Shown: positions 537 through 64,000 of the stretch, piece after piece | How positions within the stretch are numbered: position 1 is the stretch's first letter | Layout: every line of letters begins with the position of its first letter | Assembly: GCA_029204225.1 (NCBI GenBank) | Contig: MU832165.1 | Coordinates: 19,907 to 83,906 of the forward strand | Length of the DNA stretch: 64,000 nt | Reading direction: 5' to 3' | Source of the DNA: Diphasiastrum complanatum | Lineage: Eukaryota; Streptophyta; Lycopodiopsida; Lycopodiales; Lycopodiaceae | Translations under genes and position numbers: made by a program | The notes under the pieces: model-generated | What the model was told of the DNA's origin: nothing | What the model saw: the letters and a program-made list of their open reading frames with translations, nothing else | Databases searched by the model: none

Positions 537-904
537 AGTTACAAGCTAAGATTCACTAGCTATGCTAGAAAGCAGGACTTAAGCTAGAAAGCAGGAAGAG
601 AATGCTTAAGGAGGCTAAAGAGGAGCAATCATCATAAACTGAATAAAGGAATACAATGTTGCCCTACTTATACCCTCTCCCTGAATCAAATGGAGGATTC
701 AAAAAAAGGGAGGGAAAAGGATTTGGAGGGAAAATAGTGCGCCCTCCCAGTAGGAGGACCCCGCTCCAAATCAATGAGACCAAGTCCTAAAAATATAACC
801 AAATAGGGCCCAAGGCCAGTATATGAATAAAAAGGGCCCTTAGGCCTGCTTATGCATAATAACAATAAAAGAATGGACGCGGCGAATGTAATGAGCCAAG
901 TCCA
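537..904 (-). mobile_element. 5' LTR remnant of a - strand LTR retrotransposon
   Basis: This non-coding stretch sits on the LTR side of the primer-binding site at 525-536. It holds short internal duplications (GCTAGAAAGCAGGA twice, 565-600). No second LTR is in the window and the outer end cannot be fixed, because LINE-A sequence begins near 905. The LTR assignment rests on position alone. Confidence 0.5.
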
Positions 905-912
905 TAACTCTC

Positions 913-1442
913 ATGGAGGCATTTGGTGTCACTATCACTGATCTTCCCTCGGGTACGCACCAATACATTAGACGTTTTTTATACAAAGCATATCTCGACC
1001 ATACTTGGCGACGCCAGTTGGGGGTTAAGCCCGATTACTACCAAATTCACTTTTTGGAGCAAGATGCTACTGGTCTTCCAGTTTTACCTCGATATTTGTC
1101 TTCACTGGTCTCTGTTTCACTTTGGAACAATTTAGAGACTCCTCGCACCAGTTGGCTATTGAGATTGGCAGATTCCAGGGTACACCACGAGAGGAGAGAT
1201 TATGCCAGCTATGTTCTTTACATGAGATCGAGTCCGAGGACCATTTCATCTTTAGATGCCCTATATATTATGGGATTAGAAGGAGATATCACTGCCTATT
1301 CCGAGACATGCCTACTACACTTAGATCACTTATTGCATATGAGGACCTTCGCTGTGTTGCGGTTATGATACGAGAGATGGTCTTGCTACGACAGGATATG
1401 TACCAATCAGCTCACCAGCCACATCCTAGCTCTCAGGCTTAG
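913..1442 (+). pseudogene. LINE-A ORF2 C-terminal fragment with CCHC motif, frameshifted
   Basis: The frame from 913 encodes a segment with ITDLPSGTHQYIRR, matching DLPRGTHSYIRG in LINE-B. Near 1125 the homology moves to another frame, which carries SSHQLAIE and the zinc motif CQLC...HFIFRC (C-x2-C-x9-H-x4-C), then PIYYGIRRRYHCLFRD, ending at 1442. The one-base shift makes this a dead copy. In LINEs such a terminal Cys/His motif is thought to bind template RNA or target DNA. Identification is by direct comparison with LINE-B at 5852-6538. Confidence 0.88.
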
Positions 1443-1827
1443 ATTACGTCATTCTTCTCCAGGAGACGACCACGTCGAGACCTTGAGTTTGATGATGATG
1501 ACGACGATACACCACCTCACAGATATCAGAGACAGTGTATCACTCACAGTCATGTGGCAGCTCGCACTACCCGTCTTGTCATGAGAGCACACAATTTTCA
1601 CCCTCCTAGATGACGTCAGCGACGGTCCATATTACCTCCTGCAACAGCTCGATCACATCCTTTTTCAGCAGCAGTGCTAGATGATATGACTCTATTCTTA
1701 GCAATTATTTTGCTCCCACTTATGGACAGTTTGTAGTTTACAGTTATATTGTTCATCTTTTATGCATTTCTTGGAGACGTTTATATACGCTCCCATGGTT
1801 ACCGTTACTTGACATGTACTCTTATTG

Positions 1828-1857
1828 GTCTTATATGCCTTTTGGCATGGAAAAGAC
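1828..1857 (+). other. LINE-A 3'-terminal two-tier hairpin
   Basis: Outer arms GTCTT (1828-1832) and AAGAC (1853-1857) enclose inner arms ATGCC (1835-1839) and GGCAT (1844-1848) around a TTTT loop. The same layout with different, still complementary, inner arms occurs at the 3' ends of four other copies here. It is probably the RNA element recognised by the LINE reverse transcriptase; that role is inferred. Confidence 0.75.
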
Positions 1858-1868
1858 GTTAATAAAGC

Positions 1869-1890
1869 TTCCTCTCTCTCTCTCTCTCTC
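1869..1890 (+). repeat. (TC)n tail of LINE-A
   Basis: A pyrimidine tract (TTCC then TC repeats) directly follows TTAATAAAGC. It takes the place of a poly(A) tail and marks the junction with LINE-B. Confidence 0.85.
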
Positions 1891-2032
1891 ATGACAAAGT
1901 TACGCTCATTTTTGTAAAACTGCTTGATTAGGGTTTTGCTTCCTCTCTCATCTATCTCTTGCAAATCATCCTACGGCTTCGCTTCGCCTTCCTCTAGGCT
2001 TTGTCTTCCGCACAAAGCGTGCTAAGAAGTTT

Positions 2033-2999
2033 ATGTCTATAGGCTCTCGCAAACGTCTTCGTACTTTGGAAATTGCATCCACCATGCCTATCGATTCTGT
2101 CAGCGCTCCGCCGCCACAGGTTGCTGCTTCATCCTCAGCTGCTATGGGAGACACATGCCACACCTACACGTGGCACACCACTCCTGAGAACATCTCCTCG
2201 TTGAATGAGTACATTTCTAAGCAATTTGCCGCTTTTCTTTCACAACTCAATGAACTTCGTGCGGATTTGCATACTAAGACTGCCACGATTGACGCTCAAC
2301 AAGCTGAAATTGCTTCTCTTCGTGCTGTGCTTAGTGCTTTGCAGAGGGACATCATCCCTAATATCTCCCGTGTTGTTGAGGATACTAAGGCATCCATGAG
2401 TAAGCTTCCCCTACTTGAGCGCCAGATACATGAAACTGTTGAGTGCACTTCCCGGATTCCCGTTCTTGAACAGCTCCTTCATGAGACGGTGGAACATGTA
2501 TAGAAAGTACCTACTCTCGAGCAAGAAGTACGTGAGACCAAATCATGGGCTTCTACCCTGAGATCATCTACCACCTCTTCGTCTTCTGTAGCACCCTCCT
2601 TAGACACCATGGTACAAGGCGTCTTGGCAGAACAACAACGTCGGGACGACAAAAAAGCTCAACTTAAGATTCCGAGGTCTTTCTACTAAGGGCACAACAC
2701 CGGACCAGGTTACCTCTTTGTTTGCTTCACGCATGGGGCTCTCAGTTCCAGGTATCCAGTATGCTTGGCGCCTCCAGCATGATCCCAAGGTATTATTTGT
2801 CAAATTCAAAACTATGGACGACCGGCAGACAGTTCTTCGTGCGCGTCGTACTCTCCGAGGCTCTCATATTTACATAGATGATGACCTTACTCACTGCCAA
2901 TGGTTACAGCGTAAAACTATTATTCAGGAGGCAAGGACAAAACAACAGCGGGTGGTATTTACAAATGGCAACCCTTGCTTTTTCTCCAAGCGTCAATAG
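2033..2999 (+). pseudogene. LINE-B ORF1 (coiled coil plus RRM/CTD-like), broken
   Basis: The ORF opens at ATG 2033. A Pro/Ala/Ser-rich start is followed by a long heptad-like helix (from about 2190) rich in Leu, Glu and Gln. The first break is an in-frame TAG at 2501-2503. The second is an extra base near 2672. After it, the frame ending at 2999 encodes the C-terminal half, with TLRGSHIYIDDDLTHCQ matching TLRGTTIYLDEDLTFIQ of the intact LINE-C ORF1. The likely role, by analogy to L1 ORF1p, is to coat the element RNA. The terminal TAG (2997-2999) is in the same frame as ORF2. Confidence 0.82.
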
Positions 3000-5900
3000 G
3001 AAGTTGGGGTACTCGGGCATGGGAGCAGCCCGATAGCCCCAGCTAGCGTCACATTCGGTTTTTGGAATTGTGGCGGCCTCTCCACCTCTTCTACAGCGGC
3101 TGATCTTGACACCTATCTATGTTCGGCTGATTTTCTACTTTTTGCACAGACATATGAGTCTTCCACACACCCACTTCCGCACATTTCTGGTTTTCAGTGG
3201 ATTTCTGCTCCACGACCTATGCTACAGGGCAGAATACTTCGAGCCTCTGGTGGAGTTGCATGTTTGTACAGGTTGGTGTATACTCCTTCTATTCGGTTGG
3301 TGTCTCAGGATACTTATGGCCGTTACTTGTGGCTTCAGATTACTGCATCCTTCTTGGGGCTGGACCAGGATTTGTTTGTTGCAGTGTGCTACTTTGCTCC
3401 CCACACTTCAGTGTTTATGGATTTGGGAGGTGATCCTTTTCAAGCCCTTTCTGACGGCGTGCTAGACTCTCTGTACAATGTTACATATTGCTTGCAGGGG
3501 ACTTTAACGCACGCACAACCGCTCGCCAGATTGAGTTCTATGCTGACACACTCTCTCTTCATCCGTTGGATACCTCTTATGCCCATTATTCTCAGGACTC
3601 ATCAGCGACAATTACTCTTTTTGGGGAACAGCTTCTGAGGTTGTTTAAGCACACGGTCTCATTATTCTCAATGGTCTTCTTCAATGGCCATCCTCCTCTG
3701 CATATACTTGCCACCCATTTGGTGGCGGTCACAGCGTAGTGGACTATTTCATTGCATCTCCTGCTTTATTGCCCCGCCTGGCATCCTTCACCATCGCTAC
3801 CCCGTCCTCGCTGATCACTCTCTGCTCTACCTCTCCTTCTCCCCAGCGCCGAGTCCGCCTTCTCCTCCACCTTCCCTCTTTGTTCGACCCACCCGCTATC
3901 GTATACCTCCTCATCAATCCCAGGCCTATGTTGCCCACGTCTCTCGTCTTCTGGACCACTTTCCTTCCTCCTCCGATGTCACTACCCGAGCCTGCTTTTT
4001 AACACACGCTCTGACTACTGCCGCTCATGCCATTGCACCCCCTCGCCGCTTCTCTTCTCATCGTCGTACCCATACTAAATGGTATGACAACGACTGTTCT
4101 TTCTTCTAGAAATATGTCGAGTTCCTCAAATTCTCCAATTCTACACTGTCTTCTTCCGCAGAAAAGCAGCTTCGTTCCCTTCTCCGCAAAAAGAAAGTGG
4201 CCTACTTTTCTTCCCGTTCCTCCTACCTCCTTCGCTCCCTCCACTCTGCTTCCTCGGCTACTTTTTGGAAGATCTTTCTTCATAAGCCCCTATCCATTGC
4301 ACCCATCCCTCTTCAATCTTGGGTCGACTATGCAACCAACCTATATACAACTGCTCACCCTTCCATCCCTCTTTCTTCTCGTCCTACCCACTCTGACCTC
4401 TTTTCTCCTGACATGGTTGAAGCCACCATCTGCAAACTCAAGAACAATCGTACGTCTGACATTGACCTCCTTTCAGCCAAGCTCCTCAAACCAATTGCCA
4501 AACTCGCCTCCCCTTTCTTGGCCCGCTGTTTCAACCGCTCTGTCGTTGATGGTTTCCCCATACCTTGGGCCACCGATCTCCTTCATCCCATTCTTAAAGC
4601 AGGCGATGCCATGAATGTCCACAACTATCGCACTATTATGATTGGTCATACCATGGCCAAGTTGCTATTCTCCAGAAATTCGTTACGGCAGAGGGCCGAG
4701 GCTGATTCTCGACTATTATATAAGACTGGCCAGGCTGGCTTCCGCCGAGGTTATAGCACTCTTGATCATGTCCTCACTCTACGTACTATCATTGAGGAGG
4801 CAAAGCATATGGGCAAGAAGGTATTTGCTTGTTTCATTGATCTCTCTAAGGCCTTTGATACTGTTCCCCGTCATCTTTTGATCAGCAGACTATGTCAGCT
4901 TGGCTTTTCCGACTCTATTCTCGCGGCAGTGGTTGCTCTGTATGAGAGAGTTCTAGCACGTATTCGGCTGGGTACTGATTTGTCTTCTCCCATCCGTAGC
5001 ACTGTTGGCGTCAAGCAAGGCTATCCACTATCCCCTCCGCTCTTTGCATTTTATATTGATGTTCTAGAGCGCCTCATTCGTGAAGAAGGTGGAGACGGTT
5101 GCCCGCTGGCTCATTTGCTCATCCCCATTCTGCTTTATGCTGATGACATTGTCCTGCTTTCTTCCTCACTAGAAGGGTTGCAGTGTCACTTACAGGTCTT
5201 ACATCGCTTTTGTGTTGCTTGGGGTCTCTCTATTAACTTAAAAAAGACGAAGATCATGATTTTCAACACCAATCGACAAAGCCTTCACAATTATCAATTC
5301 TTCTATGACGGCCAGGAAGTTGACATTGTTGCCTCTTATACTTACTTGGGAGTCTTGTTTACTGCGCCCCTTCTTGGTTTCCGCCAGGCTGCATTTGCGC
5401 ACATTTCCTCCGGTCTTTCAGCATTGGTCCAGTTCGAGCGTGGTTGTACAATGAATTATATTTTTGATCCCGCTACTAGATGCCAATTGTTTCACACGCG
5501 GGTGGTTCCAGCAATGATGTATGCCTCCGAGATTTGGTTGCCAGGACTTTCTCTCCGGGACTGGGCAGGCATTTCCCGCATTCAGGCCACTATGTTGGGT
5601 CGCATGATATGTGCGAAGACTACCACCCCTCATGATATCCTATCTGCTGAGTTTGCTACTCTTCTATCATCCTTGAGGGCTTTTTCCGCCTTATTCTTTT
5701 TCTTCAGCGGATTCAGGAGATTCGTGCATCTCACCCGGATAGATACATAGTTGTTGCGGTTACTTCTTCACGTGTCCTAGCTGATTCCCATGCCAAGCTA
5801 TCCTGGTACCAGCAGGCGTCTGATCTCTTACGACATCTGGGCGTCTCTATCATGGATCTTCCTCGTGGTACGCATTCATATATCCGAGGCTATGTATTCC

Positions 5901-6538
5901 ATCGATATATGCAGCAAACTTGGAGCTCCCTCCCACCTTCCCGTATTCGACTGAGCTATTACCAGACACACTTCCTCTCTCTGGATCCTTCTGGTTTGCC
6001 ATTTTTGCCGCTCTATCTCTCACAGCCCCTATCACACGGCATGCGCTATCGTCTTGGGCAGTTGCGCATTTCCTCTCATCAGCTTGCTATTGAGGCCAGT
6101 CGTGCATGGGATATCCCCCGGGAGCGTCGTCTATGTCGCTTGTGCTCGTTGAAGGAGGTGGAAGATGAAGCCCATTTCCTCCTCAGATGTCCGTTGTATT
6201 ATGAGATACGGGGGAGGTATTATTGTCTCTTTCGCGATGGCCCGCATACACTTTGCAGTTTTGTCTTCTATCCGGATGCTCGTTGCTTGGGACTTCTTGT
6301 TCGTGAGATGCTTACCCTCCGTCAGTCTCATCTGCCTGCACCAGATCACCTGGGGTTAGACTCCCGGCAGCTGCTTCTCACTGGCTTCTTTCGGACTCGA
6401 GCACATGCTGATGATTCCGATGATGAGATTCCTATCGCTGTGCCACCGCGGAAAAAGCCCAGATGTAGTCGGCACTCGCCTCCATCGGGGCCCATTGTAC
6501 GGTCCACTCAGCGAACACTTCACACTTACTTTCGCTGA
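3000..6538 (+). pseudogene. LINE-B ORF2: APE endonuclease, reverse transcriptase, CCHC motif
   Basis: The endonuclease starts around 3048 (FGFWNCGGLS), with the catalytic-loop motif AGDFNAR near 3495 and HSVVDYF near 3735. The reverse transcriptase runs from about 4400 to 5400, with FIDLSKAFDTVPRHLL, GVKQGYPLSP and the catalytic LLYADDIVLL (YADD codons 5136-5147). The C-terminal part (5852-6538) has the zinc motif CRLC...HFLLRC. Frames break near 3480, 3725 and 5680, with a TAG at 4107-4109. No ATG lies between the ORF1 stop and the endonuclease; the frame is simply open from 3000. The protein would nick the target and copy LINE RNA there. Confidence 0.9.
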
Positions 6539-6554
6539 TATGTACTTATTCTCC

Positions 6555-6625
6555 ACCTGGCCCGGGTTGTGGGCATTGGTACTTTTTCTGTAGTTCTTCT
6601 GTTATACCTGGCCCGGGTTGTGGGC
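6555..6625 (+). repeat. 20-bp direct repeat in the LINE-B 3' UTR
   Basis: ACCTGGCCCGGGTTGTGGGC occurs at 6555-6574 and again at 6606-6625. Each copy contains a CCCGGG palindrome. Confidence 0.85.
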
Positions 6626-6716
6626 TACTTTCATTCGTCGCTAGTTTATAGCATTTTACGACCACGTCCTCCTATGGATGATGCTCCCGCTGTTGCTTGT
6701 ACATATTTTCTTTTTG

Positions 6717-6763
6717 GTCTTATGCACCCACGGGTGCCCAAAAGACGTTAATAAAGCTCTCTT

Positions 6764-6823
<60 letters not shown>
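6717..6823 (+). other. LINE-B 3' hairpin and (TTTC)n(TC)n tail
   Basis: Outer arms GTCTT (6717-6721) and AAGAC (6742-6746) enclose the inner stem GCACC/GGTGC (6724-6728 and 6733-6737) with a 4-base loop. Then come GTTAATAAAG and a CTTTCTTTC(TC)n tract from 6757 to 6823. The inner stem sequence differs from LINE-A yet still pairs. Confidence 0.8.
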
Positions 6824-6826
<3 letters not shown>

Positions 6827-6890
6827 CCTAGCGCTCCTCTCTCGCGATGGCCTAGCGCTCCTCTCTCGCGTTGGCCTAGTGCTCCATCTC
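6824..6890 (+). repeat. 24-bp tandem repeat at the LINE-C 5' end
   Basis: Units begin with TGGCCTAG at 6824, 6848 and 6872. The first two are almost identical and the third is partial and diverged. Tandem units at the 5' end are common in LINE promoters; a promoter role here is only a guess. Confidence 0.8.
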
Positions 6891-7070
6891 CAGCGCTCTG
6901 CTGCCTCCAACCAGCGAGTGTGATGCCCTCCAGCGGAACCTGCCTCCAGTAACAATGGCAGCGAGTTTACCTTCAACCGGCGACCTGATCAACATCGATG
7001 CATAAACCTGCCTTTAACGGAACAAATAGATTGCAGAACCAGGACTGTTTGATTGCAGAGGATTCGAATC

Positions 7071-8069
7071 ATGGCCAAAAGTAAGAGGGGTGGTGGACCT
7101 GCCCTTCCTGCCAACATTGCTTCATCCACTTCATCCTCTTCATCTACCACATCTTCTTCTTCCATTTCAGACCCGTCCATCGCACCTACCTTCGATCCAC
7201 CTTCACCTTCACCTTCCATTCCAGTTGCAATCCCTATATCTCCGTCAGATCCTATTCTTGATAATAGTGAATCCATCATAGCTGATCCTTTGACCCCGAA
7301 TACCCCAGAAGAGGAATTACCTCTGCCTCCAACCTTTATGATCTCTGTCATTCGTGCAGATCAGTTACGTTCCTATGAATATTTCAACGACCATCGGAAA
7401 AAACTTCTTTCTCTTGAAGCTATGATCCAAGCTGTTCAATCTCATCTTCAGAAACTAGATTCGTCTATCGATGATCTCAAGAAAGAAGTTGCAGCTGTCA
7501 AAATCGAAGCTTCCTCTCATTCGACTACTTCAGCTAAGATCCAACAACTTGAAAGTCAAGTGGAACAGCATCATACCGCTGTCCGATCCTGGGCAGATTT
7601 GCTTAAAGGTCCTAATACTGCTGTTCTACCACCTCCACCTTCTTTTATCTCAGCTACGTTCACCAAGAGCCGTTTGCGAGAGCAAAAGGCTCTTAATGTC
7701 CGAGTAAGAGGTATTACGAACTCCCATGATGTTGTTGGTGAAGCTAAAAATTTTCTTGAAGAGAGTCTTCAACACCACCACAAAGATATGGATACTGCAT
7801 GGCGACCTAAGAAAGATCCAAGTACTCTTGTTATACGCTTTGCATCTGCCACTGGTCGTCATGAAGCGCTAGGGAAGAGATCTACATTGCGGGGCACCAC
7901 AATATACCTGGATGAAGACCTTACTTTCATTCAGGTTCAAGAACGGAAAAAAGAAAAACAGGAGGCTCTAACGAATGGAAAGCGGTTGATCTACAGGGAT
8001 GGTATCATCCGTTTTGTAGATATTAAACCTGCTACTATTAACGAGATATCTGAGACTATTCAGAGTTAG
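7071..8069 (+). CDS. LINE-C ORF1 protein (332 aa, L1-ORF1p-like architecture)
   Basis: This is an uninterrupted 332-residue frame from ATG 7071. Residues 1-85 are Ser/Pro/Thr-rich and probably disordered. A coiled coil spans about 100-175 (hydrophobic heptads around QAVQSHLQKLDSSIDDLKKE). An RRM-like segment begins near 205 (NVRVRGITNS, then TLVIRF near 253). A basic C-terminal domain follows, with LRGTTIYLDEDLTF and RLIYRDGIIRF. This order matches the trimerising, RNA-binding ORF1p of L1-type elements (Transposase_22-like). No CCHC zinc knuckle is present, unlike many plant L1 ORF1 proteins. With no ORF2 partner in this copy, it may bind its own RNA and rely on ORF2 from relatives; that is inferred. 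Confidence 0.82.
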   Translation: MAKSKRGGGPALPANIASSTSSSSSTTSSSSISDPSIAPTFDPPSPSPSIPVAIPISPSDPILDNSESIIADPLTPNTPEEELPLPPTFMISVIRADQLRSYEYFNDHRKKLLSLEAMIQAVQSHLQKLDSSIDDLKKEVAAVKIEASSHSTTSAKIQQLESQVEQHHTAVRSWADLLKGPNTAVLPPPPSFISATFTKSRLREQKALNVRVRGITNSHDVVGEAKNFLEESLQHHHKDMDTAWRPKKDPSTLVIRFASATGRHEALGKRSTLRGTTIYLDEDLTFIQVQERKKEKQEALTNGKRLIYRDGIIRFVDIKPATINEISETIQS

Positions 8070-8229
8070 TGAGAGAGTTAGAGCACTGAAGAGATGCCAG
8101 TTGAATCTGTAAGTGGTCTACGTACCATATAACCCTGGACATTATCCTCTTCTTAGTTAGTTTTGGTTTAGTTATGTTGTTTGACGGCAATGTTCCGTCT
8201 TGGTTTCACTTTATCTGATGTAGTTGCTC

Positions 8230-8329
8230 GTCTTATACGCCTTTTGGCTTGGAAAGACGTTAATAAAGCTTTCTTTCTTTCTTTCTCTCTCTCTCTCTCT
8301 CCCTCTCTCTCTCACTCTCTCTCTCTCTT
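8230..8329 (+). other. LINE-C 3' hairpin and pyrimidine tail
   Basis: Outer arms GTCTT (8230-8234) and AAGAC (8254-8258) flank GCC-TTTT-GGC (8239-8248). GTTAATAAAGC and a (TTTC)n(TC)n tract follow to 8329. The inner stem is shorter than in the other copies. Confidence 0.75.
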
Positions 8330-8676: not shown

Positions 8677-9491
8677 CAAGGTTGCATCGAACCGCGGTTC
8701 AAACTGCCTTTCACGGTTCGAACCATCGAATCGTTCGGACCCGGTTCGAACCGTTCGAACCGTCTGCTGCCCTAAACCCGTATTCCGAACAATCTACAGT
8801 CCAAACTCCTATGGTCTAGACTCTACCTAGCTAGTAGCTACCTACTACCTAGTACCATTTAATATCCATAATACATAATACATATCAATAATCAGACTAG
8901 TTAGTGACTCAGACTTCAGTGGTCACTAGTAAGTACTAAGTTGTAAGTTGTAACCTGTAACTAGCTAGTAGTCAGTGGTCACTGGTCAGTGCCAAGTGGT
9001 CACTATTATAATTTATCAGCTCTGAGCTCAAGTCTCAAATTTCAATTATACTCCTAATTTCAATTTTCTAAACCCTAAGTTTCAAGTTTGAAGTGGCAAG
9101 TTTCAACTCCAGCATACAAACTCCACAGTCTCGACTCTCCTTAGCAACTTGCAAGCAGATCCTTATACCCTGCAACTTACAACTTACTGCAGTTCTCTTA
9201 AGACAAACTTGGGTCATTATGTTTTGATACGACAGGTCACAGGTCACGACTCTGATCTGATTATCTTGATTCCTGATATCTGTAAATTTGGAGAAAATTG
9301 TTTAGCTATTAGGTGTCTGTACAGTGAATATATGACTTGTACATTAGAAAATTTTTTTTTTTTTTTGAAAAATGGAAAAGACAGGTTTAAACTGTTTTCC
9401 GATTCGAACCTGACCTGCCGGTTCGAACCTCAAAGAATCGGTTCGAACCGGACGGTTCGAATCGACCTGTTCGAACCGGGGTGTAACCTTA
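8677..9491. mobile_element. Non-autonomous hAT-like DNA transposon
   Basis: The 815-bp element has short imperfect terminal inverted repeats, CAAGGTTGCA and TGTAACCTTA. It is flanked by an 8-bp direct repeat CTGCAGAA (8669-8676 and 9492-9499). Both subterminal zones hold clustered GGTTCGAACC-type palindromes, common in plant hAT elements. The interior has no transposase frame and many short CTAGTAG/ACTAGTCA-like repeats. The 8-bp target duplication is the hAT hallmark. A shorter relative lies at 50907-51096. Confidence 0.75.
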
Positions 9492-23472: not shown

Positions 23473-25257
23473 TTACATTACTAAGGACTTGGAGATCAAG
23501 CCAAGATTTGATCTATGTCTTTCAAAGTCCTTCTTAGCTAGAGGCTTGGTGAGTAAATCTGCATAACAATTTGAAGTTGATACATGCTCAAGGAGAATCT
23601 CACCATCCATAACTTTTTCTCTTACATAGTGGTGTGCTACCTCTATGTGTTTACTTATTGCATGGAAGATTGGATTACTTGCAAGATATTGGGCCGAGAT
23701 GCTATCACATTTGATGCAAGGTATTTCCTCCTCTTGAATGATCCCGAGCTCCACTAGTAATCTTTTGATTAAAATGACTTCCTTCTTTGTGATAGTCAAA
23801 GCCTTGTACTCGGCTTCACATGAGGATAAGGAGATAGTGTCTTGCTTCTTAGATTGCCAAGAGACAAGATTACCTCCCAAAAATATTGTATAAGCACTTG
23901 TGGACTTTCTATCCACCTTATCACTTGCAAAATCCGAATCTAAAAAGGCAACAAGGCTTAAATCATGTCTTTTAAAACAAAGTCCATAGCCTTGAGTAGA
24001 TGCAACATATCTCAAGATCCTCTTCCCCTTTATCCAATCATGGATCTTTGGATTTTGCATGCTTTGACTAAGCTTATGCACACTAAAACTAAGATCAGCC
24101 CTACTGATAGTGAGCCATATTAAAGAGCCTATTACACTTCTAAAAAGTGTGATGTCCTCAAAGGATGCTTCATCACAAGTTTTAGTGTCTTTAACATTAG
24201 ACTCCATAGGAGTATCTATGCTTTTACAATCTTGCATTTTAAACTTCTTAAGCATAGATCTTACATAACTTTCTTGAGAAATGAAAGCTAAGTCATTAGA
24301 GATCTTAAATTCTAATCCAAGTACATGATATAAAAATCCAAGATCTTGCATTTTGAATTCCTTTCCTAAGAAGATCTTGGTATCAATAAGTAAATCCATG
24401 TTGCTTCCACATAATAGAATGTCATCAACATAAATAAGCAACATGATTATATCATTACCAACATGTTTAAGATATAATGATGGATCATATGAACTAATCT
24501 TGAAACCAATAGAAAGAAGATAAGTGTTCAACCTCTCATACCAAGCCCTTGGAGCTTGTTTCAAGCCATAAAGACTTTTCAAAAGTAAGCATACTTTTGA
24601 TCCTTTGCCATTCACAACAAAACCTGGAGGTTGATGCATATATATTTCTTCTTCTAAGTAACCATTTAAGAAAGAATTGGAAACATCAAGTTGAAGCATT
24701 TTCCAATCATAAAAGCAACAAATAGTAATGAGAATTCTAATGGTTACCATCTTTGCTACTGGAGCAAAGGTTTCTTCATAATATATGCCTTTGATTTGGG
24801 CATAGCCTTTAGCACAAAGCCTTGCTTTGAACTTATTGATTGATCCATCATTATTGAGCTTGATTCTATAGACCCACTTGCATCCAATGGCATGCTTGTC
24901 ATTAGGTGGATCTACAAGTTGCCAAGTCTCATTTTGCATCAAAGCTTCATACTTGGTCTCCATATCTTTGATCCAATCCTTTGATTGAAGAGTTTCCTCC
25001 ACACTTGATGGTTCTTCAATGGAAGTGTGAAAAACATGTAGAGAACTTGAATCCTCCACTTGTTTGTCTTTTTCCAAGTAGGCGAGTCTTCTAGGCTCGG
25101 ATCTCTCTCGGGTTGGTCTTCTTGGAGTCATTGGTAGACTCGGCTTCTCTTGTGATCTTGGCCCCAACAAGTCTTCATCTTGATCAATACTTGATGAAGA
25201 GACTCCTCCTTGATGAATAAGCTCTTGAGATTCCTGCACATTGTCCTTCACGTACAT
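23473..25257 (-). CDS. Copia-1 pol, reverse transcriptase and RNase H half (594 aa)
   Basis: This begins with ATG immediately after the in-frame TGA that ends the upstream half. It contains the RT start WQLVDPPNDKHAIGCKWVY, KARLCAKGYAQ, the FLNGYLEEEIYM region, the catalytic YVDDILLCGS and the RNase H segment (KSTSAYTIFLGGNLVSWQS, LSSCEAEYKAL, KHIEVAHHYVREKV). No further stop or frameshift is seen. RT/RNase H makes and processes the element cDNA. Whether this half can be translated by itself depends on the preceding stop. Confidence 0.93.
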   Translation of the reverse strand: MYVKDNVQESQELIHQGGVSSSSIDQDEDLLGPRSQEKPSLPMTPRRPTRERSEPRRLAYLEKDKQVEDSSSLHVFHTSIEEPSSVEETLQSKDWIKDMETKYEALMQNETWQLVDPPNDKHAIGCKWVYRIKLNNDGSINKFKARLCAKGYAQIKGIYYEETFAPVAKMVTIRILITICCFYDWKMLQLDVSNSFLNGYLEEEIYMHQPPGFVVNGKGSKVCLLLKSLYGLKQAPRAWYERLNTYLLSIGFKISSYDPSLYLKHVGNDIIMLLIYVDDILLCGSNMDLLIDTKIFLGKEFKMQDLGFLYHVLGLEFKISNDLAFISQESYVRSMLKKFKMQDCKSIDTPMESNVKDTKTCDEASFEDITLFRSVIGSLIWLTISRADLSFSVHKLSQSMQNPKIHDWIKGKRILRYVASTQGYGLCFKRHDLSLVAFLDSDFASDKVDRKSTSAYTIFLGGNLVSWQSKKQDTISLSSCEAEYKALTITKKEVILIKRLLVELGIIQEEEIPCIKCDSISAQYLASNPIFHAISKHIEVAHHYVREKVMDGEILLEHVSTSNCYADLLTKPLAKKDFERHRSNLGLISKSLVM

Positions 25258-27426
25258 TCAATCTTCATGGAAGATTACATCTCGACTTATCATAGTTTGA
25301 TTAGTAGATGGAACAAAAATCCTATAGGCTTTACTTGAGTAGCCTATCATAATGCATTTAAGAGCATTAGCATCTTCTTTTTTTCTTGTTTCAAGAGGTA
25401 CATGTACAAAGCATACACATCCAAATGTTCTAAGATGATTGGCCTCGGGTTTCCTTCCATACAACTTTTCATAAGGTGAAATATCTTCTATAGCATGATT
25501 TGGCAAAAAATTGCAAAGATAGTTAGCACATCCTATTGCTTCTCCCCAAAAATCTTTAGAAAGAGAGGCTCCTAGTCTAAGTGCCTTTGCACATTCACAT
25601 AGAGTTCTATTTTTTCTTTCAGCCACTCCATTAGATTGAGGAGAGTAGGAACAAGTGAAATCTCTTCTAATGCCAAAATCATTACAAAAGTTTATGAACT
25701 TTGTGGAGATGTATTCACCTCTATTATTACTTCTCAAAGCTTTAATTTTACAAGATAGTTGATTCTCAACAAAATCTTTGAACTTCACAAAAGTTTCATA
25801 TGCAAGTGCTTTGGAAGATAAGAGGTAAACCCAACAAAAACGTGAGTAATCATCAATAAATGTTATAAAACATGTAGCTCCACCCTTGCTTTTGGTGGAT
25901 GAGAAATGGATGTCACTATGGATGAGTTCCAAAGGTGCTTTGGACTTGATGGTTGATCTTTGATGTGGCCTTGCATGTGATTTGGCCAATGCACATGCAT
26001 CACAAGGACTTGGCTCCTTGATCATGGACTTAGGCAAACCATGAGCTAGCTCCAACTTGCACATACATTGCATGGCCTTGGAGTTGGGATGGCCCAACCT
26101 CCTATGCCATAGATCTTCATTTGAAAGCTTTCCTTGTAGCACAATATCTGAGCAAAGATTGGCATTTCCATTTCCATCAATCTTGAATAACCTTCCAAAA
26201 CGAGAACATGATGCTATTATATCATCATCTTTTGTGATCAAGCAAGTACCATCTTTAAAATCTACTTGTAGACCATCATCATTGAGTTGGCCTACACTTA
26301 TTAGATTTTTAGTCAAACTAGGAACATAGAGCACATCATTGAGATCAAGCTTATCTAGAGATATGCTTCCTATGCGTTCTATCATACATTCCTCATCATT
26401 TGCTGTATAGATACAACTTCTAGATCCTTTGTATGGTACAAGATTACAAAAAGAGTTTTTATCACTACTCATGTGGGATGAGGCACCACTATCTAGCCAC
26501 CATAGATTAGAATGCTTGAAAGAGGAAGATGAAAAGTTAGACATCATAAGTGAATCTTCTTTGTCACAAGGAGATTCATCTTCACAAGTGATGTGGGCTT
26601 GCTTTTTCCTTTTGTAGCATTGGGAGGCAAAATGGCCCTTTTTGCCACATGAGAAACAAGTAAACTTGTACTTGTTCTTCTTCACATTGGATGAGCTTGG
26701 GTCTTCCTCGGATGTCTTCTCCATTCCTTTTGTGTTGTCCTTGGAGCTCTTGCCATTCTTCTTGTCTTTTCTCTTCTCCTTGGATTTGGTGAAGAGTGCT
26801 TGATCACTTCCTCCCTCCTTGAGAGACAATCTCTCAAATCTTGCTACCTGAGTTTGATGCCTATACTCCTCGACTATCAAGACTCCTTGTAAGGCTTCTA
26901 AAGAGGGTAAGTCATCTTTAATTGCATAAGATTGAACAATGGTATCGAAATCCTCAGTTAATCCATTCAAAATAACTTGAACAATTTCTTTGGATTTGAT
27001 AGAATCATCTATGCAACAAAGATCTTTATGGAGATCCTTGACTCTAGAAACATAGGATGAAGCACTTTCATCCTTTCTTTGAAAACTTTGAAAAATCATA
27101 TTTCTTAGAGTAAGGACTCTTGAAGTGTTTTTAGACTCATAAATGGATTGAAGAGTACTCATTGCTTCTTGAGCATTGACACAAGAACTAATCTTTCTTA
27201 GAACTTCATTAGAGACATTTAGCTTTAAAACATAAAGAGCAACACATGCTCTTTTCTTGAATTTGGGAATTTCTTGAGGATTAGTAGGTTCCTCCTCATT
27301 CCCATTCACTATATCTATTAGATCTTGAAGTACAAGAATGGATTCTATCCTCACTTTCCATGTACCATAATTTGTAGAAGTGAGTCTCTCACTTTGTTCT
27401 AATAGATAAGATCCCATTGAAGTCAT
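25258..27426 (-). CDS. Copia-1 gag-protease-integrase half (722 aa), ends in an in-frame TGA
   Basis: ATG at 27426. The gag (UBN2-type) spans about residues 10-200. A CCHC knuckle CFSCGKKGHFASQC lies at 257-270. The protease active site is LDSGAS at 311-316. GAG-pre-integrase LWHRRLGHP is near 439. Integrase has D505 (HSD) and E603 (AERKN), but the middle acidic position reads LRSNNRGEY where the family has LRSDNGGEY, so D567 is Asn and a Gly is Arg. It ends at TGA 25258-25260 in the same frame as the RT half. Without the middle Asp this copy should not integrate. Confidence 0.93.
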   Translation of the reverse strand: MTSMGSYLLEQSERLTSTNYGTWKVRIESILVLQDLIDIVNGNEEEPTNPQEIPKFKKRACVALYVLKLNVSNEVLRKISSCVNAQEAMSTLQSIYESKNTSRVLTLRNMIFQSFQRKDESASSYVSRVKDLHKDLCCIDDSIKSKEIVQVILNGLTEDFDTIVQSYAIKDDLPSLEALQGVLIVEEYRHQTQVARFERLSLKEGGSDQALFTKSKEKRKDKKNGKSSKDNTKGMEKTSEEDPSSSNVKKNKYKFTCFSCGKKGHFASQCYKRKKQAHITCEDESPCDKEDSLMMSNFSSSSFKHSNLWWLDSGASSHMSSDKNSFCNLVPYKGSRSCIYTANDEECMIERIGSISLDKLDLNDVLYVPSLTKNLISVGQLNDDGLQVDFKDGTCLITKDDDIIASCSRFGRLFKIDGNGNANLCSDIVLQGKLSNEDLWHRRLGHPNSKAMQCMCKLELAHGLPKSMIKEPSPCDACALAKSHARPHQRSTIKSKAPLELIHSDIHFSSTKSKGGATCFITFIDDYSRFCWVYLLSSKALAYETFVKFKDFVENQLSCKIKALRSNNRGEYISTKFINFCNDFGIRRDFTCSYSPQSNGVAERKNRTLCECAKALRLGASLSKDFWGEAIGCANYLCNFLPNHAIEDISPYEKLYGRKPEANHLRTFGCVCFVHVPLETRKKEDANALKCIMIGYSSKAYRIFVPSTNQTMISRDVIFHED

Positions 27427-50580: not shown

Positions 50581-50634
<54 letters not shown>

Positions 50635-53600
50635 ATCCGGAATCTCAGCCTCTCCATCAGAATCAGTACTCTCCTGTCTCTGTCTTCGACGGGATAAACA
50701 CTCCTGTATGCTCGGCTGTATCAAGGGGGAGGTGTCAGCATCTGTCTAGCCTCACCATACGCAGGTCTGACATCTCTCGGATCATCAGTGCAACACATCG
50801 GTCCTCATACGATATCAAGGTAGAGAGTGTGAATGGGTGATCTCGAAACAAGCAATAGTACCTCCCTCGGATCTCGTAGTAGGTTGGGCTGCTGGCAGTG
50901 AATCATAGTTGCATCGAACCGCGGTTCGAACCGTTCGGAGCTGGTTCGAACCGGATTTTTTTTTTTAAAAAAAACCCTAAAAAGCCAAAAAAAAACGTTT
51001 TGGAATTTTTTTTTTTTTTCAGTTCGAATTGTTTTCAAATTCAAACCTAGCCTGCTGGTTCGAACCGGAAAGAATTGGTTTGAATTGGGGTGTAGTGACA
51101 GCTGGGCATCTGAAGAGAAAATGAAACTCATCCTCTACATCGTGTGTATCACATACTACAAATCCGAGCATCTCTCGGGGTGCCACTGTATCTACCAGTC
51201 TCAATGGCTAGCTGGTGAGAGGAAACCCGAAACTGACCCATCACTATCCGCAGTCCATGTGAGATACTATCCACCAGATATCTGGGTACTAGAGCATACC
51301 CAGCGAGATCCCGGGATAGAAAATGTGCCTGATAAAACTCCTTCTTCACCCCAGACAAACCCTGACAAGTGCTCTGAAGATATACAGGTGTCCTCAAACA
51401 TACTGATGAGTACCAACTAGTAGATCCGTAATATGAATACCCAATGTGGAGAGGAGACGACAGGCCTGGGAATACCACAAGGAGTGTCCCTCAAAATGTA
51501 AGTGCTAGGATGATGACAAAGCTGCTGCAGCATAGTGTGTGCCTCTACCCCGAAGATCCTCCAGCACTATATGAATGTGACAATATGGAACAGTGCCTCT
51601 ACTTGAATAGGGGGGACGGCAAACTCCGCCAGTATAATATGATGTGGTAGAGAGGACTTAGCCCGTATGATCCGAGGTAGCATATTAATCTGAAGTCGTG
51701 GGATGCGTGCCCACTCGGTAGCCGTCAGGCCAGTACTCCATGTCTCTGATGCGTACAGGGCTGAGGGGACTACCATAGTGTCAAAGAGTCGGCACTTACT
51801 AGTCGCATCCCTAATGTGTGAGCTGAAACATAGTCTCTCCAAATCTACCAATGATGCATAGCCCTTTCGTAACCGGGAAACTGTCGCCTGTCGCATGCTG
51901 AAAGTGGGACCAGAAAATACCGTGCCCAAGGTATGTGTAGGAGTCAACTACCTCAAGTGGATGTCCATCCCATAGAAGCTCCTATCACATCATGAAGGAT
52001 CTGGAGGTGTTAAACACCATAACTTTGGTCTTGGCCACATTCACTGATAGTCCCCACTGTATACAAAAGGAGTGAAGCGCATCCAGATGCCGCTACAGGC
52101 CTTCCCTCGTCCTCGAAAGCAAAACCACATCATCAGCATATAATAGGATAGCGATAACGAGGTCACCCAATGTACATCCCTCTCCTCCCTCTCTCTGTAT
52201 AACCTGCTCAAGCTCATCTATATATAAACCAAAGAGTGTAGTGAGAGTGGACATCCCTGCTTAACCCCAATAGTACTCTCTATCTTTGGCGATACAAGTC
52301 CTGATACCTGAATCCGGCCAAAATAATTTGTCTGTACAATGCCACAACTGCCTGTATGATATCCTCCTGGAAGCCACGATCCCGAAGCCTCTATATCAGT
52401 AAATGTCTAGGCACAGAGTCAAAGGCTTTGTGGAAATCCACAAAGTAGTAGTATACACGCTCTCTCCTGGCCTTAGCCTCCTCAATGATGGATCTCAGGG
52501 TCAAAATATGATGCATGGATGTGGGGGAAGTGGAGGTGTGTCAGGTACAGTGCACAACGATGTGGCATAGGTCACCCATGTGCTAAGGTTTGTAATCCGG
52601 GGTGGAGGTGCTCGTGAAAGGAATTTTTACCAAAATGATCTCGACGAAGAGCTAAAGAGAAGGTCTATCATCTTCTTTCATATGTAATTTTCTATTTTTG
52701 GGTGGTTCTACGATATACAAGAGATAAATGGAGGAGAGACGACAATCCCATGAAATAGTCAACAACACTACATCCTCCACTGTGTGGGAAACAGTTATTA
52801 GGTATCAGGCCACTGCAGTAAGCCATTATAAATGGCCAATCCATGAGCCTCTCGCCCAACTGAAGCATCTGCTCTCCATATGCAGTAACTGGACCCTCCG
52901 CATCTGTTGATCATCGCCGGAGGCCAAGATCATCCCAGTCTAAAGCATGTAGCCGCTATGGGTCATCCTCTGCTCTGTGGAACTCCGTCTGCCTAGACCC
53001 AGTCCTGGCATTAAAGTCGCCAGCTAAAAGAATATAACCCCGCTCCTCATAACTAATAATATCTGAAGAGATATTCATGTAAGGTGACTCCTCATTTGAT
53101 GTGAAAACTGATGTATCCGGTGGAAAATAACAAATGGCCATAAAGAGGTCTCGGTCTAGGCTCATCAAAGTCCGGTCCACCCGAATCCAAATATAGCGAG
53201 CTCACTCATCAGTATGTACCAACTCAACCCAAGGCTGAATGAAGTCGCGGACTAAGCAGGCCACCCCACCAGAACCCCGATCTGTCAATGCTCTCGTCGC
53301 CCTCCAATGTGCAGAGTACCAACAAAAACCTGCAACAGCCGGTAGTGCTCTCTCTGGACTCTCATGTGTCTCGGTGAGTAGTAAGATATCACCCTCTGCA
53401 CAAAAATCTCTAAAATCCCCTGCGGTAGCTGAAGAGTGATGCCATTGCAGTTTCATAACCTCAACCGCAATGCTCTAGAAAGAGCCCCCGAACCGCTACC
53501 TAGTTTGGAGGGCCTTAATCCTTATTTGTTAGTATTTGGAGGATCAATGTATCGAGCCTTACCATCCCGATAAATTACCCTTCCCCAAAGCTTTTGCCTC

Positions 53601-56600
53601 ACTGAATGCTTTCTTCCAATCCGCAACCTGTATGGGAGTGAGATCATCATCCATAAAAATAAGTGTACCTCTTAAGAAGAAGAAGCTTTATTAATGTCTT
53701 TTCCATGCCAAAAGGCATATAAGACTAATCAGTTTATCAAAACAATGGAAAACTAGATGGATAGATGCCGTCAACATAAAAAAAAAAAGATCTAACTAAG
53801 AAGAGAATAATGGCCAAAATTATATGGTACGCAAACCATTTAACAGTTCGACTAGACATCTCTTCAATTCTCTAGCTCTCAATCTAACTCTAAACAGTCT
53901 CAGATATCTCATTAATAGCAACAGGTTTAATATCTACAAATCGAATAGTGCCATCTCTGTAGATCATCCCCTTTCCATTTGTTTGAGCCTCTTGTTTTGC
54001 TTTTTTCCGCTCTTGAACTTGAATGAAAGTAAGGTCTTCATCCAGATATATCTTAGTATCCCGAGAGAGAAGACACTTCAACGCATCTAGGAAGTGTAAT
54101 TGGAAGTATTGCTTCTAATTTTATCAAGGTGTGACCCTTTTCTTATCTCCTCAAAATGGTCCTAAAAAGTGAACTCCAGCCTAGCAATGATTGTATAACA
54201 TCAAGAGGTTGGTTCCACTGTTGAAGTCCAAGTGAATGCATGAAGGGCCTACCTAGACAGGTTAAGAAATACATGAATGGAATCAAAGAAAGAGCAGATA
54301 ATGACGTGTGACAAAGCACTCTCCTTCAAAGAATACCATACGAATTTAGAGAGAGAGAGAGAGAGAGAGAGTGCAGATCTCCTGCAAACAACTGCACCTG
54401 AGCCTCCTACAAAGGACTCAGAGCATCAAACCAATCAACTGTAGAATGCCTGGCAAAAATCCTACTTCTAATCTTCTTAAGGCCGTTAAGGGAACTTTCC
54501 AAGATGCCACCAGATTAGAGTTTTGACAGATGAAAAATGTGGGGACATACATTGGTTGAATCACATATGACAGATTGATGGAAGTAACTCCAACGTGAGG
54601 AAAGCAAAAATGTGAGATATGCAGATGATTAGTTCCAACAATTTACAACGGTCGATGGGCATGAATGAAGAAGAAACGCACATGAAAAGAGGATGCTATA
54701 GAGCGTCCTACAATTGACCAAAAGATGTGGAAGTCAAGGCTCCAGCTGAGACCTAATGCAAACATAACCGACTCAATGTTTAGGGTACCTTTTTGAAACA
54801 TGTTTCGAAAGGGTCTTTCAAAATAGGAAAACATGTTTCGGACTTTCAGTTTCATTTTTTAAAGTTCCTTTTATTCCTCACCTTCAATTATCGCAAAAAC
54901 AAGTGTTTTTTTGTAGTGTAAAGTTTTGCCTTTATCCAGAACCTTAATATCTAGCCATTTTTTGGAGGTGCTACGAATACATTGGTGGGCACCGACAAAT
55001 ATTGGCTTTTTCAAAAAGAGGTGCCTATTACCTAAAAATGGCATGGCACTGCCACACGTGGCAGAGCCACGCGACCATTGCCACGCAATTGCCATGAACA
55101 CTGCCACGTGAGGCCCGACGGGTCAAATGTGTTCTTTCTCCCTCTCCCTCTCCTTGCCTTTCTCCCTCTCTGCCATTGCTAGTGGCCACATAAGAACTTT
55201 CCAAAGATATGGGTTGTGGCAAACCAGGGCTCGCACCCAGAAACGAGTTTTGCCTTTTCGAATTGAATACCCTCAAATTGGCGGATTGGGGGACTATGAA
55301 CTGACTCAAACTTAGTCATCTATTCTTGATAAATTCAAAATTCATTTGTCAAAGACATATCCAATGAGGTCAAAATAGTAATCTTACTGGAGTATGCAGA
55401 AGGCATATGATTTGGCTGGGGCAAAAAGAAGGCTCTTGGGTCCTATGCCACATGATTTGGTTGAAACATCATCCAAATTGTCAAAATTCAATAAACCATA
55501 ACCCTTTACATGGTGATCAATCAATCAATGCACTGATTAGTTGTGGTTCTCACTTTTTGCTAGTCCTCAGGCTGCCCGAGTGACGGCCATTCCCTCAGCC
55601 AACTTGCTTCATGTTTGTATGTGCAAGTTCTCAATGGGCATACAAGGTTGTTCGGATGGTGACTTTCTTAGAGAGGCATTTTTTAAATAAAACTGAAACT
55701 GAATTTCTTGGTGTTGCTTGCTGTATACTGAAGCTATTACTCATACTGCCAGCTAGCAAATTTTCCTACAAGTAGTGAACTTTTCCACATGAGTCGTTTA
55801 CAAAACAGCCAATGAAAGGAAGAAAAAATGTCAATATGTGCCTTTGACTACATGCAAAAGAACGAGTTGTATGGACAGATTCGCATGCTAGATTCAACTG
55901 TCATGACCTCTCTATAAAATTAAAATGCTATCTCTCAATTATTGTGATAAACAATTCACAATAACCAGAGCAGCTTTCAATAAATTGAATAGAACATTTA
56001 ACTTGTTTGTGTGACGAAAATGTAAAGAGGGCGAAAGGAAAAAAAACACAGCTGTTATTTTATTTTTAAGCTTCATATATAAGTTCATTTGGAAAACGAT
56101 ACAAAATTCAGTGATGTGCCTGGCTCAATGGCAGGGCCTGTGGCTGGGCGAGAATCATGCGAGCTACTGCACCAGCAGCATTGTCCCTTACAGCATTTTC
56201 CTCCCCTTCACCAAAAAGTGGATTTAATCCAACGAGAATGTTGTTGTAGTATCTTATCTTGATCAAGGAAAAAGTACTCAAAATCTATTATACTTTGAAA
56301 AACCAACAACTTATTTCAGTAGCTTAAGAACAAATCACAAACATGTTGATCAGGATACTGCAAGGCTTTCTCTCCTCCATTTTTACAGAGTTCACCTACA
56401 CAAAATGCAGCGTTCCGACGGTTGGTGGCCTCTGTGGATGACAGATCTTTTATGGCAACAGGCATGACAGACTGCAATGAAGAAAAAACGCTGGTCACTA
56501 TAATACTTTTTCTATCTTTGACACGTTATAGCGACAAGAAAACAAACGCTATCAAACTGCAGTCTACTAGCCTACTGAAAGCATATGCAGATTCCTTGTC

Positions 56601-61384: not shown

Positions 61385-61500
61385 ATAAGAGAGAGTATAG
61401 AGAGGAGAGAGAGTAGAGAGGAGAGTGCGAGAGAGAGAGAGAGAGGAGAGAGATAGCGAGAGAGAGTGAGAGAATTAAGAATCTAGAATTATTATTATTT

Positions 61501-61535
61501 AACGTCTATTGTGCCCAGGGGGCACATAAGAACAA
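61501..61535 (-). other. LINE-E 3' hairpin
   Basis: Arms TGTGCCC (61510-61516) and GGGCACA (61520-61526) form a 7-bp stem. On the - strand it is preceded by TTCTTA and followed by ATAGACGTTAA. The sequence differs fully from the A-type stem but pairs perfectly. Confidence 0.78.
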
Positions 61536-61719
61536 ATAGAGAGTACAAAATGGTGAGAAGCATTGGTCCGCATAAGGAACTTATATTCAATGAAAGACAG
61601 TAAAACTAAAACCTAAAATATCGATTCCTCTCTGTCTCTAAGAGAAAAAGTATCCAAGCTTGTACACCCAGCAGGTGGAGGGTACAAAGCAAGAGCTTAA
61701 CCACCGTTCAGCCGCGGAG

Positions 61720-63968
61720 GGAAACAGCAACGAGCAAGCTGAAAAGTAATGAGTTGATGGGTAGTAGTGGGTCGTGATGAGGCTGGTGGGAGGGCGTGAT
61801 GAAAGATCTAGTAGCACTGGATCGAGCCGAAACTATCTCTGTGATCTTCGATCTTCGTACGGGGAACGTCAATTCCCGCAACCGAAATATCCACTCTGGT
61901 CTCGCTTCTGGAAAGAAACTGAGTAAAGTTAGCCTGACTGAATCCATATCTGAGAGCGTAGGTAGAAGGTGAAGCCGTAAAATACACAGCTCTCTCAAAA
62001 GAAGACCCACACATCTAGCATCTGTGATACTCGAGGAATGAGCTCAACGTGATGGGAATAATTTCTCGGTATAGAACAATGGTATCGTCCTCAATCGCAT
62101 AGTATAATCTGGGGCAGCGAAAGATGAAATGAAACTCAACTTCCACCTCCTGAAGAGAAAAAGCTGACATATCCGTGCATGCTGGGAGTGTCGTGTTATC
62201 TACCTGTCTTGATAGCAAGCTGATGAGAAGTAGACTCGAGAGCTGTCCTAACACGATATCTCCAGACCAAAAGATAGCGTCTGTGTAAGATAAACTGGAA
62301 GAATAGGCAAGCCCGAAACGTCCAGCCGTAAAAGATGTGTGCCATAATAATGTAGCTTGACCCTATCTGGATCAGGATGTGACCATATAGTGCGTATGTA
62401 GCTCCGGTAAATCTGCTGTCTGATATAAGCATGGGTTCCATTCGGAAGATCAAGTGCGGATAAACCCCAAGTCTGAAGAAGGGCTGAGACACTGCGATAC
62501 CAAGAGTGCTTGGCTCCCTGATCTGCAAGGGTACAAGATGAAGTGAGAGCAGCAACAATGTATCTGGAGGTATCTAGATCTGATACCCTGTGAAGAAAGG
62601 TGATGATCTGAAACATAGCACCAACAACTAATGAAGGAGAAGCAAACTCGGCTAGTATGATATCATGTGGTACTGAGGGCTTAGCCCGAATTATCCTACT
62701 GAGCATGAGAATCTGGATACGAGTAAGATCTCTCCATGTATCGCGTGATAAATCAGGGCACCAAGTCTCAGCCGAATATAGCTCAACAGGGAGACAGTAG
62801 CAGAAAATTAGTAGGGCATCTGGTAGCATGATCCTGCACATGAATAAGTAGAGCAAAATCTCTCCATATGCACTATGCCCTTGCGGAGACCCTGGCGGTG
62901 GCTGCCTGGTCCGAAAAGTGAGTAGGCGGACCAGAGAAAAGAACTCCCAAATAGGTGTGTAGGAGGTCACGATCTCAATCGTAGCCCGTCTAAAGAGAAA
63001 TCACATCTCTCATATGCTGTCTGTTGGTGTTAAACACCATAATCTTAGTCTCTTAAGGTTAACCGTCAATCCCCAACGCTGGCAAAAGTGATGTATAATC
63101 AGAAAGGTGACTCTGTAAACCAGCTGCAGAGGATTGAGAGGAGAAACCACATCATCAGCGTACAAGAGAATGGGGATAATAATGTCTGCTAGGGGACAGC
63201 CCTCTCCACCTTCCTCGCGAATAATCCGCTCGAGGTCATCTATATATAGTGAAAAAGAGTGGGTGATAAGGGGGCAACCCTGCTTCACCCCAATGGTAGA
63301 ATGTATCTGTGAGGACCAGCCACTACCATCTCTGAAACGTGCCAAGACTCGCTCATATAAAGTAATGATCGCAGCAATAGTATCCTCTGAAAAGCCAAGT
63401 GAAGACAGTCTCTGGAAAAGAAGATGTCGTGGAACAGAGTCAAAAGCTTTGCGAAAATCCACAAAGCAACAGTAAATTCTCTGTTTCCGATGTCGAGCCT
63501 CCTCAATAATGCATCTCAAAATGAAGATCTGGTCTGAAGTAGATATCCCGGTCTGAAACCAGCTTGACCCATAGCGTGTAAACCCTCAGTTTCAGCAAAA
63601 GATCCAGTGACTGTCTGTAGTATAGAGCCATATATCTTAGCTAGAGTGTGGCCAATCATAATGGTGCGGTAGTTTCCTACATTCATGGGATCACCTGCCT
63701 TGAGGATGGGGTGAAGGATATTAGTACACCAAGCCGTAGGAAAACCAGAAGTAACAGCTGTGTTAAAAACATGAGCAATGTAAGGGGAGATGAGATGTGC
63801 TACGGGCTTTAGGAAGTCTACACTTAAGGAGTCATAGTCAGTGGCTTTATTTAGTTTGGCATGTTTAATGGCGTTTTCAACCATGTCAGGGGTGAAAAAG
63901 TGAGCAGTGGTCAGGTCTCGGTGAGAGTGAGGTAGGAGGAGAGTCCGTGGTATATAACTCCGTGGCAT
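61720..63968 (-). pseudogene. LINE-E ORF2 (RT and CCHC), frameshifted
   Basis: RT from 63968: FFTPDMVENAIKHAKLNKAT, ILKAGDPMNVGNYRTIMIG, GQAGFRPGY; then FVDFRKAFDSVPRHLL, STIGVKQGCPL and ILLYADDVV (codons near 63151-63163). The C-terminal region has YSAETWCPDLSRD, DLPNGTHAYIRQQ, TSHQLAIKTGR and a decayed zinc motif (VEVEFHFIFRC, 62120-62090, the preceding CxxC altered). Frame changes occur near 63516, 63010, 62500 and 62200. Confidence 0.87.
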
Positions 63969-64000
63969 ACTCGATCCAGGATTCGATGGCTATGGGGGCC

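Follow-up and report, generated by a model that had tools for sequence, protein, structure and literature searches.

The window is the whole 64-kb stretch of DNA analysed here. It has 39.6% GC and carries Copia sequences together with several LINE pieces (Table 1). A Copia LTR retrotransposon with long open frames lies on the minus strand at 23473-27447 (gag, integrase and RVT_2, E 1.3e-72). Positions 1-526 hold a tandem array of ~68-bp units (the TRF row covers 242-526 and related repeats begin at position 1).

Table 1. LINE carriers, ORF1-only elements, hairpin tails and pyrimidine tracts of the window
Feature	Position	Strand	Description
LINE-1 fragment	895..1640	+	ORF2 C-terminal part with CCHC motif, broken; tail A behind
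Tail A (LINE-1)	1828..1868	+	Outer GTCTT/AAGAC, inner TATGCC/GGCATG, loop UUUU, 3' GTTAATAAAGC
Pyrimidine tract after A	1869..1890	+	Followed by LINE-2
LINE-2	1890..6716	+	Stops and frameshifts; tail B behind
LINE-2 ORF1 remnant	1928-2969	+	
LINE-2 putative endonuclease region	about 3000-3700	+	GDFN motif
LINE-2 reverse transcriptase	4110-5750	+	C-terminal CCHC part reaches 6538
Tail B (LINE-2)	6717..6757	+	Inner GCACC/GGTGC, loop CACG
Pyrimidine tract after B	6758..6824	+	Followed by element C
Element C	6825..8269	+	~1.45 kb: 24-bp 5' repeats, ORF1, ~160-nt 3'UTR, tail; no ORF2
ORF1 of element C	7071..8069	+	332 aa, open
Tail C (ORF1-only element)	8230..8269	+	Inner stem as A with one mismatch, pair 9-20
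Pyrimidine-rich tract after C	8270..8328	+	(TTTC)n then (TC)n
LINE-6	50633..53675	-	Putative endonuclease, reverse transcriptase, C-terminal part; truncated in ORF1, where it abuts D's TTC tail exactly
(TTC)n tail of D	53674..53684	-	Abutted by LINE-6
Tail D (ORF1-only element)	53685..53725	-	Hairpin identical to A's; 3' core GACATTAATAAAGC
Element D	53685..54063	-	5' truncated: ORF1 end, 3'UTR, tail
Tail E (LINE-5)	61493..61532	-	Inner TGTGCCC/GGGCACA; outer stem incomplete; 3' end unlike that of A-D
LINE-5	61533..64000	-	Reverse transcriptase and C-terminal part; runs off the window

A LINE reverse transcriptase is present at this locus. RVT_1 matches LINE-2 with an E-value of 8.4e-30 and LINE-5 with 1.9e-15. 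The 10 PDB matches of the LINE-2 reverse transcriptase are all R2 and LINE-1 type proteins, with R2 scoring higher (94.1 bits) than L1 (74.9 bits). A search of viral_contigs and genome_contigs with the same query returned no relative. Exo_endo_phos matched one LINE-6 piece at E 7.7e-4, and the 19.7 bits of this match are under the cut-off of 24.5. The LINE-2 pieces gave no Exo_endo_phos match and a PDB search with the putative endonuclease region gave none. LINE-2 and LINE-6 both have a GDFN motif, which we take to be APE-type. Tails A and B belong to LINE 3' ends, and the RVT_1 match in LINE-2 bears out the initial annotation on this point. That annotation also gave five positions as the 3' ends of the copies. 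They are actually the 5' starts of the hairpins, and D and E lie on the minus strand. No 3'UTR or hairpin was seen in LINE-6, where the C-terminal coding region passes straight into (CT)n (50581-50633, minus strand).

The pattern GTCTTAT-gap-AAGACNTTAATAAAGC has 4 matches in the window and 0 in 100 shuffles. Tails A-D (40-41 nt) share the form GTCTTAT-hairpin-AAAGAC[G/A]TTAATAAAGC, and the identity of the block counted on their alignment is 68-98%. The outer stem GTCTT/AAGAC is invariant across these four, as had been claimed, and the loop sequence varies between tails (UUUU, CACG, CCU). The claim that five copies share the hairpin and its 3' sequence holds for A-D but not for E, which has GTTAAATAATAATAAT in place of their 3' core and an imperfect outer stem. 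With a model trained on A-D these tails reach 59.5-68.7 bits, as they must by construction. Tail E scores 10.3 bits with this model, which is rank 7 of 8 with an E-value of 2.3 over the window. In a search of 151 nt the E-value is 0.0054. Fitted to the model, tail E is paired at 6/6 inner positions and fails at 2/5 outer positions. It is weak by score, and its support is its position behind LINE-5. An Rfam search at the gathering threshold gave no match. The 16-mer core occurs at 37 loci in viral_contigs, none with the hairpin. The gapped hairpin pattern matches once in genome_contigs and once in viral_contigs, and the hairpin is absent at both places.

The 30-31-nt hairpins A-E fold with z-scores of -3.4 to -4.8. 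Shuffles fold as well in 1/200 cases for E and in 0/200 for each of A-D. The fold energies of A, B, D and E are -12.7 to -13.2 kcal/mol, and that of C is -9.7. With 10 nt of flank on each side (50-51 nt) the z-scores are -3.1 for A, -1.8 for B, -1.5 for C, -3.3 for D and -4.3 for E. Shuffles equal the flanked folds of B in 11/200 cases and of C in 18/200, so these two are not outstanding.

The most informative comparison is A vs B. Their hairpins differ at 12/30 positions, and five pairs are kept in a common register, enclosed by the outer arms that both share. Pairs 8-21, 9-20 and 10-19 are changed on both sides and are still Watson-Crick. Slid registers show no such double changes, and 11/500 shuffles reach three. 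In a neutral simulation with free positions and an equal number of changes, all five pairs survive in 0.9% of the outcomes, and in 0.3% they survive together with three double changes. A stricter null allows changes at the 12 differing positions of A and B and nowhere else; all five pairs are then standard in 8.7% and Watson-Crick in 3.7%. The initial annotation stated that the sequences differ and the pairing is kept. This is right for A vs B and for E, but A and D are the same over the hairpin, and in the window copy of C pair 9-20 is altered on both sides yet unpaired (C·U). Upstream of the tails the 3'UTRs of A-B, A-D, A-E, B-C, B-D, C-E and D-E are similar only at the level of shuffles. 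There is a weak likeness for A-C (reached by 6/200 shuffles) and B-E (4/200), and the 3'UTRs of C and D are truly related. The ORF2 C-terminal parts of LINE-1 and LINE-2 have 40-44% protein identity. The putative compensation comes from two or three lineages rather than five, and is confounded with descent.

The exact core AAAGACGTTAATAAAGC occurs 1,710 times in the host genome (1.745 Gb), and the reversed control occurs 0 times. We examined 88 copies from the first 100 listed places. These places all lie on two contigs (C1 and C2), and the copies do not form a random sample. The 12 places left out are mostly close to another listed place, so clustering is if anything undercounted. Since the copies were collected by the exact 3' core, the constancy of the outer 3' arm among them is by construction. 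GTCTTAT is exactly preserved in 76/88. In four of the remaining 12 it is replaced by ATCTTAT, with loss of the outermost pair, and the others differ in other ways or are cut short within the hairpin. By the first letters of the inner stem, 73 of the 76 fall into the groups ACG (32, the class of tail C), ATG (16, that of A) and G (25, that of B, with one A-type tail, L050, that carries a deletion). The five inner pairs are all standard in 14/16 ATG tails, 23/25 G tails and 0/32 ACG tails. ACG is the commonest class (32/73 grouped tails), and it has a C·A mismatch at pair 9-20 in 32/32 copies, the group having been chosen for C at position 9. This means a perfect inner stem is not needed in the commonest class. 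Inner-stem variation without complementarity, which the initial annotation had set against its own reading, is therefore seen at one pair in that class and is absent from the other two. Copies within a class are nearly clonal, and since the classes are few the covariation comes down to two or three events. The class series U-A, C·A, C-G could be a compensatory change caught midway.

What stands of the selected, covarying structure first proposed is a conserved 3'-terminal hairpin with compensatory changes. The block is kept beside diverged 3'UTRs, and two lineages have double changes. It must be set against this that there are three classes, few independent events and one class with a fixed mismatch.

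The initial annotation missed the ORF1-only carriers of the tail and its pyrimidine-tract setting. Element C looks complete, running from (CT)n through the 24-bp repeats, an open ORF1 and about 160 nt to the tail. The 24-bp repeats number about three (6813-6890) and are possibly promoter monomers. Of the 88 copies, 41 have ORF1 as the feature nearest the tail, 34 have ORF2 and 13 have neither. Between the end of the ORF1 match and the core lie 192 nt in the median (at most 351 nt in 37/41), and an ORF2-type match lies elsewhere in the locus in 3/41 ORF1 loci. With a looser class call that covers all 88 copies, ACG-type tails stand behind ORF1 in 33 cases, behind ORF2 in 0 and behind neither in 3. 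Non-ACG tails by the same call stand behind ORF1 in 8 cases and behind ORF2 in 34 (class vs element, Fisher 5e-14). Since the ACG class is found behind ORF1 and never behind ORF2, there is an HAL1-like family of several copies that encodes only ORF1 and shares the LINE tail. The hairpin tail is common to ORF2-bearing LINEs and non-autonomous ORF1-only elements. HAL1 (half-L1) of mammals is described, in the part of the source used here, as a non-autonomous L1 derivative encoding ORF1p alone (PMC5753468), and the present family is like it in being ORF1-only and non-autonomous.

The ORF1 of C compared with that of D has a dN/dS of 0.16 (54 codons, p about 2e-4). Some of the fetched copies have long ORFs (355, 333, 319 and 303 aa) and most have shorter ones. 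The ORF1 of C is 30% identical to the LINE-2 ORF1 remnant; the window lacks the ORF1 of LINE-1. Two low-confidence models of ORF1 (pLDDT 48.9 and 57.9) have a long helix followed by RRM-like and C-terminal parts. The best PDB match for the last 137 residues of the second model is human LINE-1 ORF1p (2yko_B, E 2.7e-4, TM 0.47). It is the sole PDB match of that model under 0.001, and many RRM domains rank behind it. Sequence searches with ORF1 gave no L1 ORF1p-type match.

A pyrimidine run of at least 11 nt stands directly 3' of the core in 84/88 copies, with a median of 53 nt. In the window there is such a run directly behind A-D, and behind E its length is 1. Most tracts of the 88 copies open with units of TTTC or TC, and could therefore be made by the element rather than supplied by the target alone. 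Elements often lie head to tail within pyrimidine tracts. Within 1.4 kb upstream, the 88 tails together have 44 pyrimidine runs of at least 20 nt on the strand of the element, against 5 on the opposite strand (binomial 8e-9). Among the ORF1-class loci, 21/41 have a pyrimidine run 950-1415 nt upstream, and 1/41 has a purine run there. The order of elements in the window and in the copies would fit insertion into tails and TC microsatellites. It must be noted that upstream tracts are not always junctions, since in two copies (L071 and L102) a (CT)n stands before the same stretch of internal LINE-2 sequence and by eye looks like an expansion inside the element. Target-site duplications were sought briefly at three junctions, the only matches being of 6-7 nt.

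TC-repeat targets are known among fish Tx1 elements. Microsatellites have been named as targets of non-LTR elements (Kojima and Fujiwara 2004; some Hero families; Togen), and Tx1- and R1-clade elements are given as target-specific in the portion of that literature we draw on (PMC4640811). The difference from these microsatellite-targeting elements is that target use is read here from the flanks of the copies.

The main rival for the arrays is template jumping. The reverse transcriptase would pass from the 5' end of one RNA to the 3' end of another, and no insertion into a tail or microsatellite would be involved. The 5' truncated LINE-6 abuts the tail of D exactly, and the further core tails found upstream are 7 on the same strand and 0 on the opposite, both of which suit template jumping. 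However, 9/44 of the long upstream pyrimidine runs scored as directly behind another tail. By eye a few more stand behind degenerate tails, but others stand behind unrelated DNA. LINE-2 is broken and the ORF1 of C is open, which suggests different ages. We consider template jumping a rather unlikely account of the arrays, and tentatively prefer insertion into tails and TC microsatellites.

As for the block itself, we argue from its conservation, its fold, the double changes in two lineages, its sharing by both element types and the adjoining pyrimidine tract that the 41 nt probably serve a stringent-type LINE family as the module for recognition of the RNA at its 3' end, in cis as well as in trans. 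The core could instead be kept mainly as a transcript-end signal, with the hairpin incidental or auxiliary. It is true that TTAATAAAGC contains AATAAA, a poly(A) signal, and is among the most constant parts of the tail, and that a mismatch is retained in the commonest hairpin class. However, what follows the core in the DNA is a pyrimidine tract and not poly(A), and a poly(A) signal leaves both the preservation of GTCTTAT and the double changes in the inner stem unexplained. We think this reading improbable. Slightly more improbable again is that there was no structural selection, with the classes being founder sequences of subfamilies, the palindromes accidental and the tail shared via recombination or template switching; the near-clonal classes with their few independent events, the mismatch kept by the C class and a strict null that is not extreme (3.7-8.7%) agree with this, but A and B hold five pairs in one register despite their differences, and E fitted to the structure pairs throughout its inner stem.

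A recognition module of this kind has precedents. HAL1 belongs to the poly(A)-recognising L1, and unlike HAL1 the ORF1-only element here has a hairpin tail with a class-specific mismatch. The closest precedent is the monocot L1 hairpin of Ohshima. Plant L1 are mostly described as ending in poly(A), but in the sections of PMC3747384 relied on here the lineage 'monocot 1a' (LINE1-1_ZM) has a covarying 3' hairpin that is shared with the SINEs ZmSINE2/3 (Ohshima 2012/2013). The likeness is close: a 3' hairpin on a LINE, compensatory changes in its stem and a non-autonomous element that shares it. The differences, going by the same sections, are that monocot 1a has a constant loop UCU and a constant 3' flank CGAG, whereas here the outer stem is constant and the loop and inner stem vary. 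Its partner is a tRNA-derived SINE and the SINE tails are (T)n, whereas the partner here encodes ORF1 and the tail consists of (TTTC/TC)n. The other comparison is with ZfL2-1 and ZfL2-2 (and UnaL2), where a 3' stem-loop is required for retrotransposition and the ORF2 protein binds it between EN and RT, as reported in the excerpted part of PMC4176376. ZfL2 is of another LINE group, its loop is specifically read and its binding has been demonstrated; here the loop varies and binding is proposed by analogy.

Folded as RNA, the block has a constant 5-bp outer stem and an inner stem-loop that differs by class, the two being separated by a short internal loop; single-stranded GUUAAUAAAGC follows. 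From ZfL2 and the monocot L1 hairpin we infer a putative binding of the hairpin by the reverse transcriptase: the ORF2 protein would bind the module, and target-primed reverse transcription would then start. The single strand GUUAAUAAAGC would end the template. The (UUUC/UC)n end of the RNA may pair with (GA)n at the nicked target and help priming. Priming on (GA)n would make new copies land in old tails and TC microsatellites. The ORF1-only family could be copied in trans via the same module.

A more specific proposal can be made tentatively. The tail may be a code of two tiers, in which the outer stem marks the LINE group and the inner stem marks the partner. The ORF1-only family, whose inner stem is distinct and has a fixed C·A, would be copied in trans, and the hairpin and pyrimidine tail together would steer elements into (TC)n microsatellites and into each other's tails, giving head-to-tail arrays. 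We hold this to be possible, and less probable than the module itself. If it is true, the code describes an HAL1-like parasite of a stringent, microsatellite-seeking LINE, probably in a plant, a host assumed from the initial annotation and the Copia content. The principle is known. As far as the literature was searched, novelty lies in a two-tier tail whose loop varies, in a partner that codes for ORF1 alone and has a distinct inner stem, and in the setting in TC tracts; in the open-access part searched, neither this tail nor a plant ORF1-only LINE was found. The family has a hairpin tail in place of poly(A), present in more than 1,700 exact copies, along with a coding ORF1-only partner. One outer stem is combined with three inner stems, and class and element are cleanly linked, which offers a natural experiment on recognition by the reverse transcriptase.

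Two other sets of repeats lie in the window. Short repeats with TTCGAACCG occur at 8716-8763, at 9439-9479 and near 50950, with one stretch inside LINE-6. A 731-bp repeat pair (38919-39649 and 44936-45654) is 90% identical and has (TC)n at the same edge of both members, one of these tracts being ~250 nt long.
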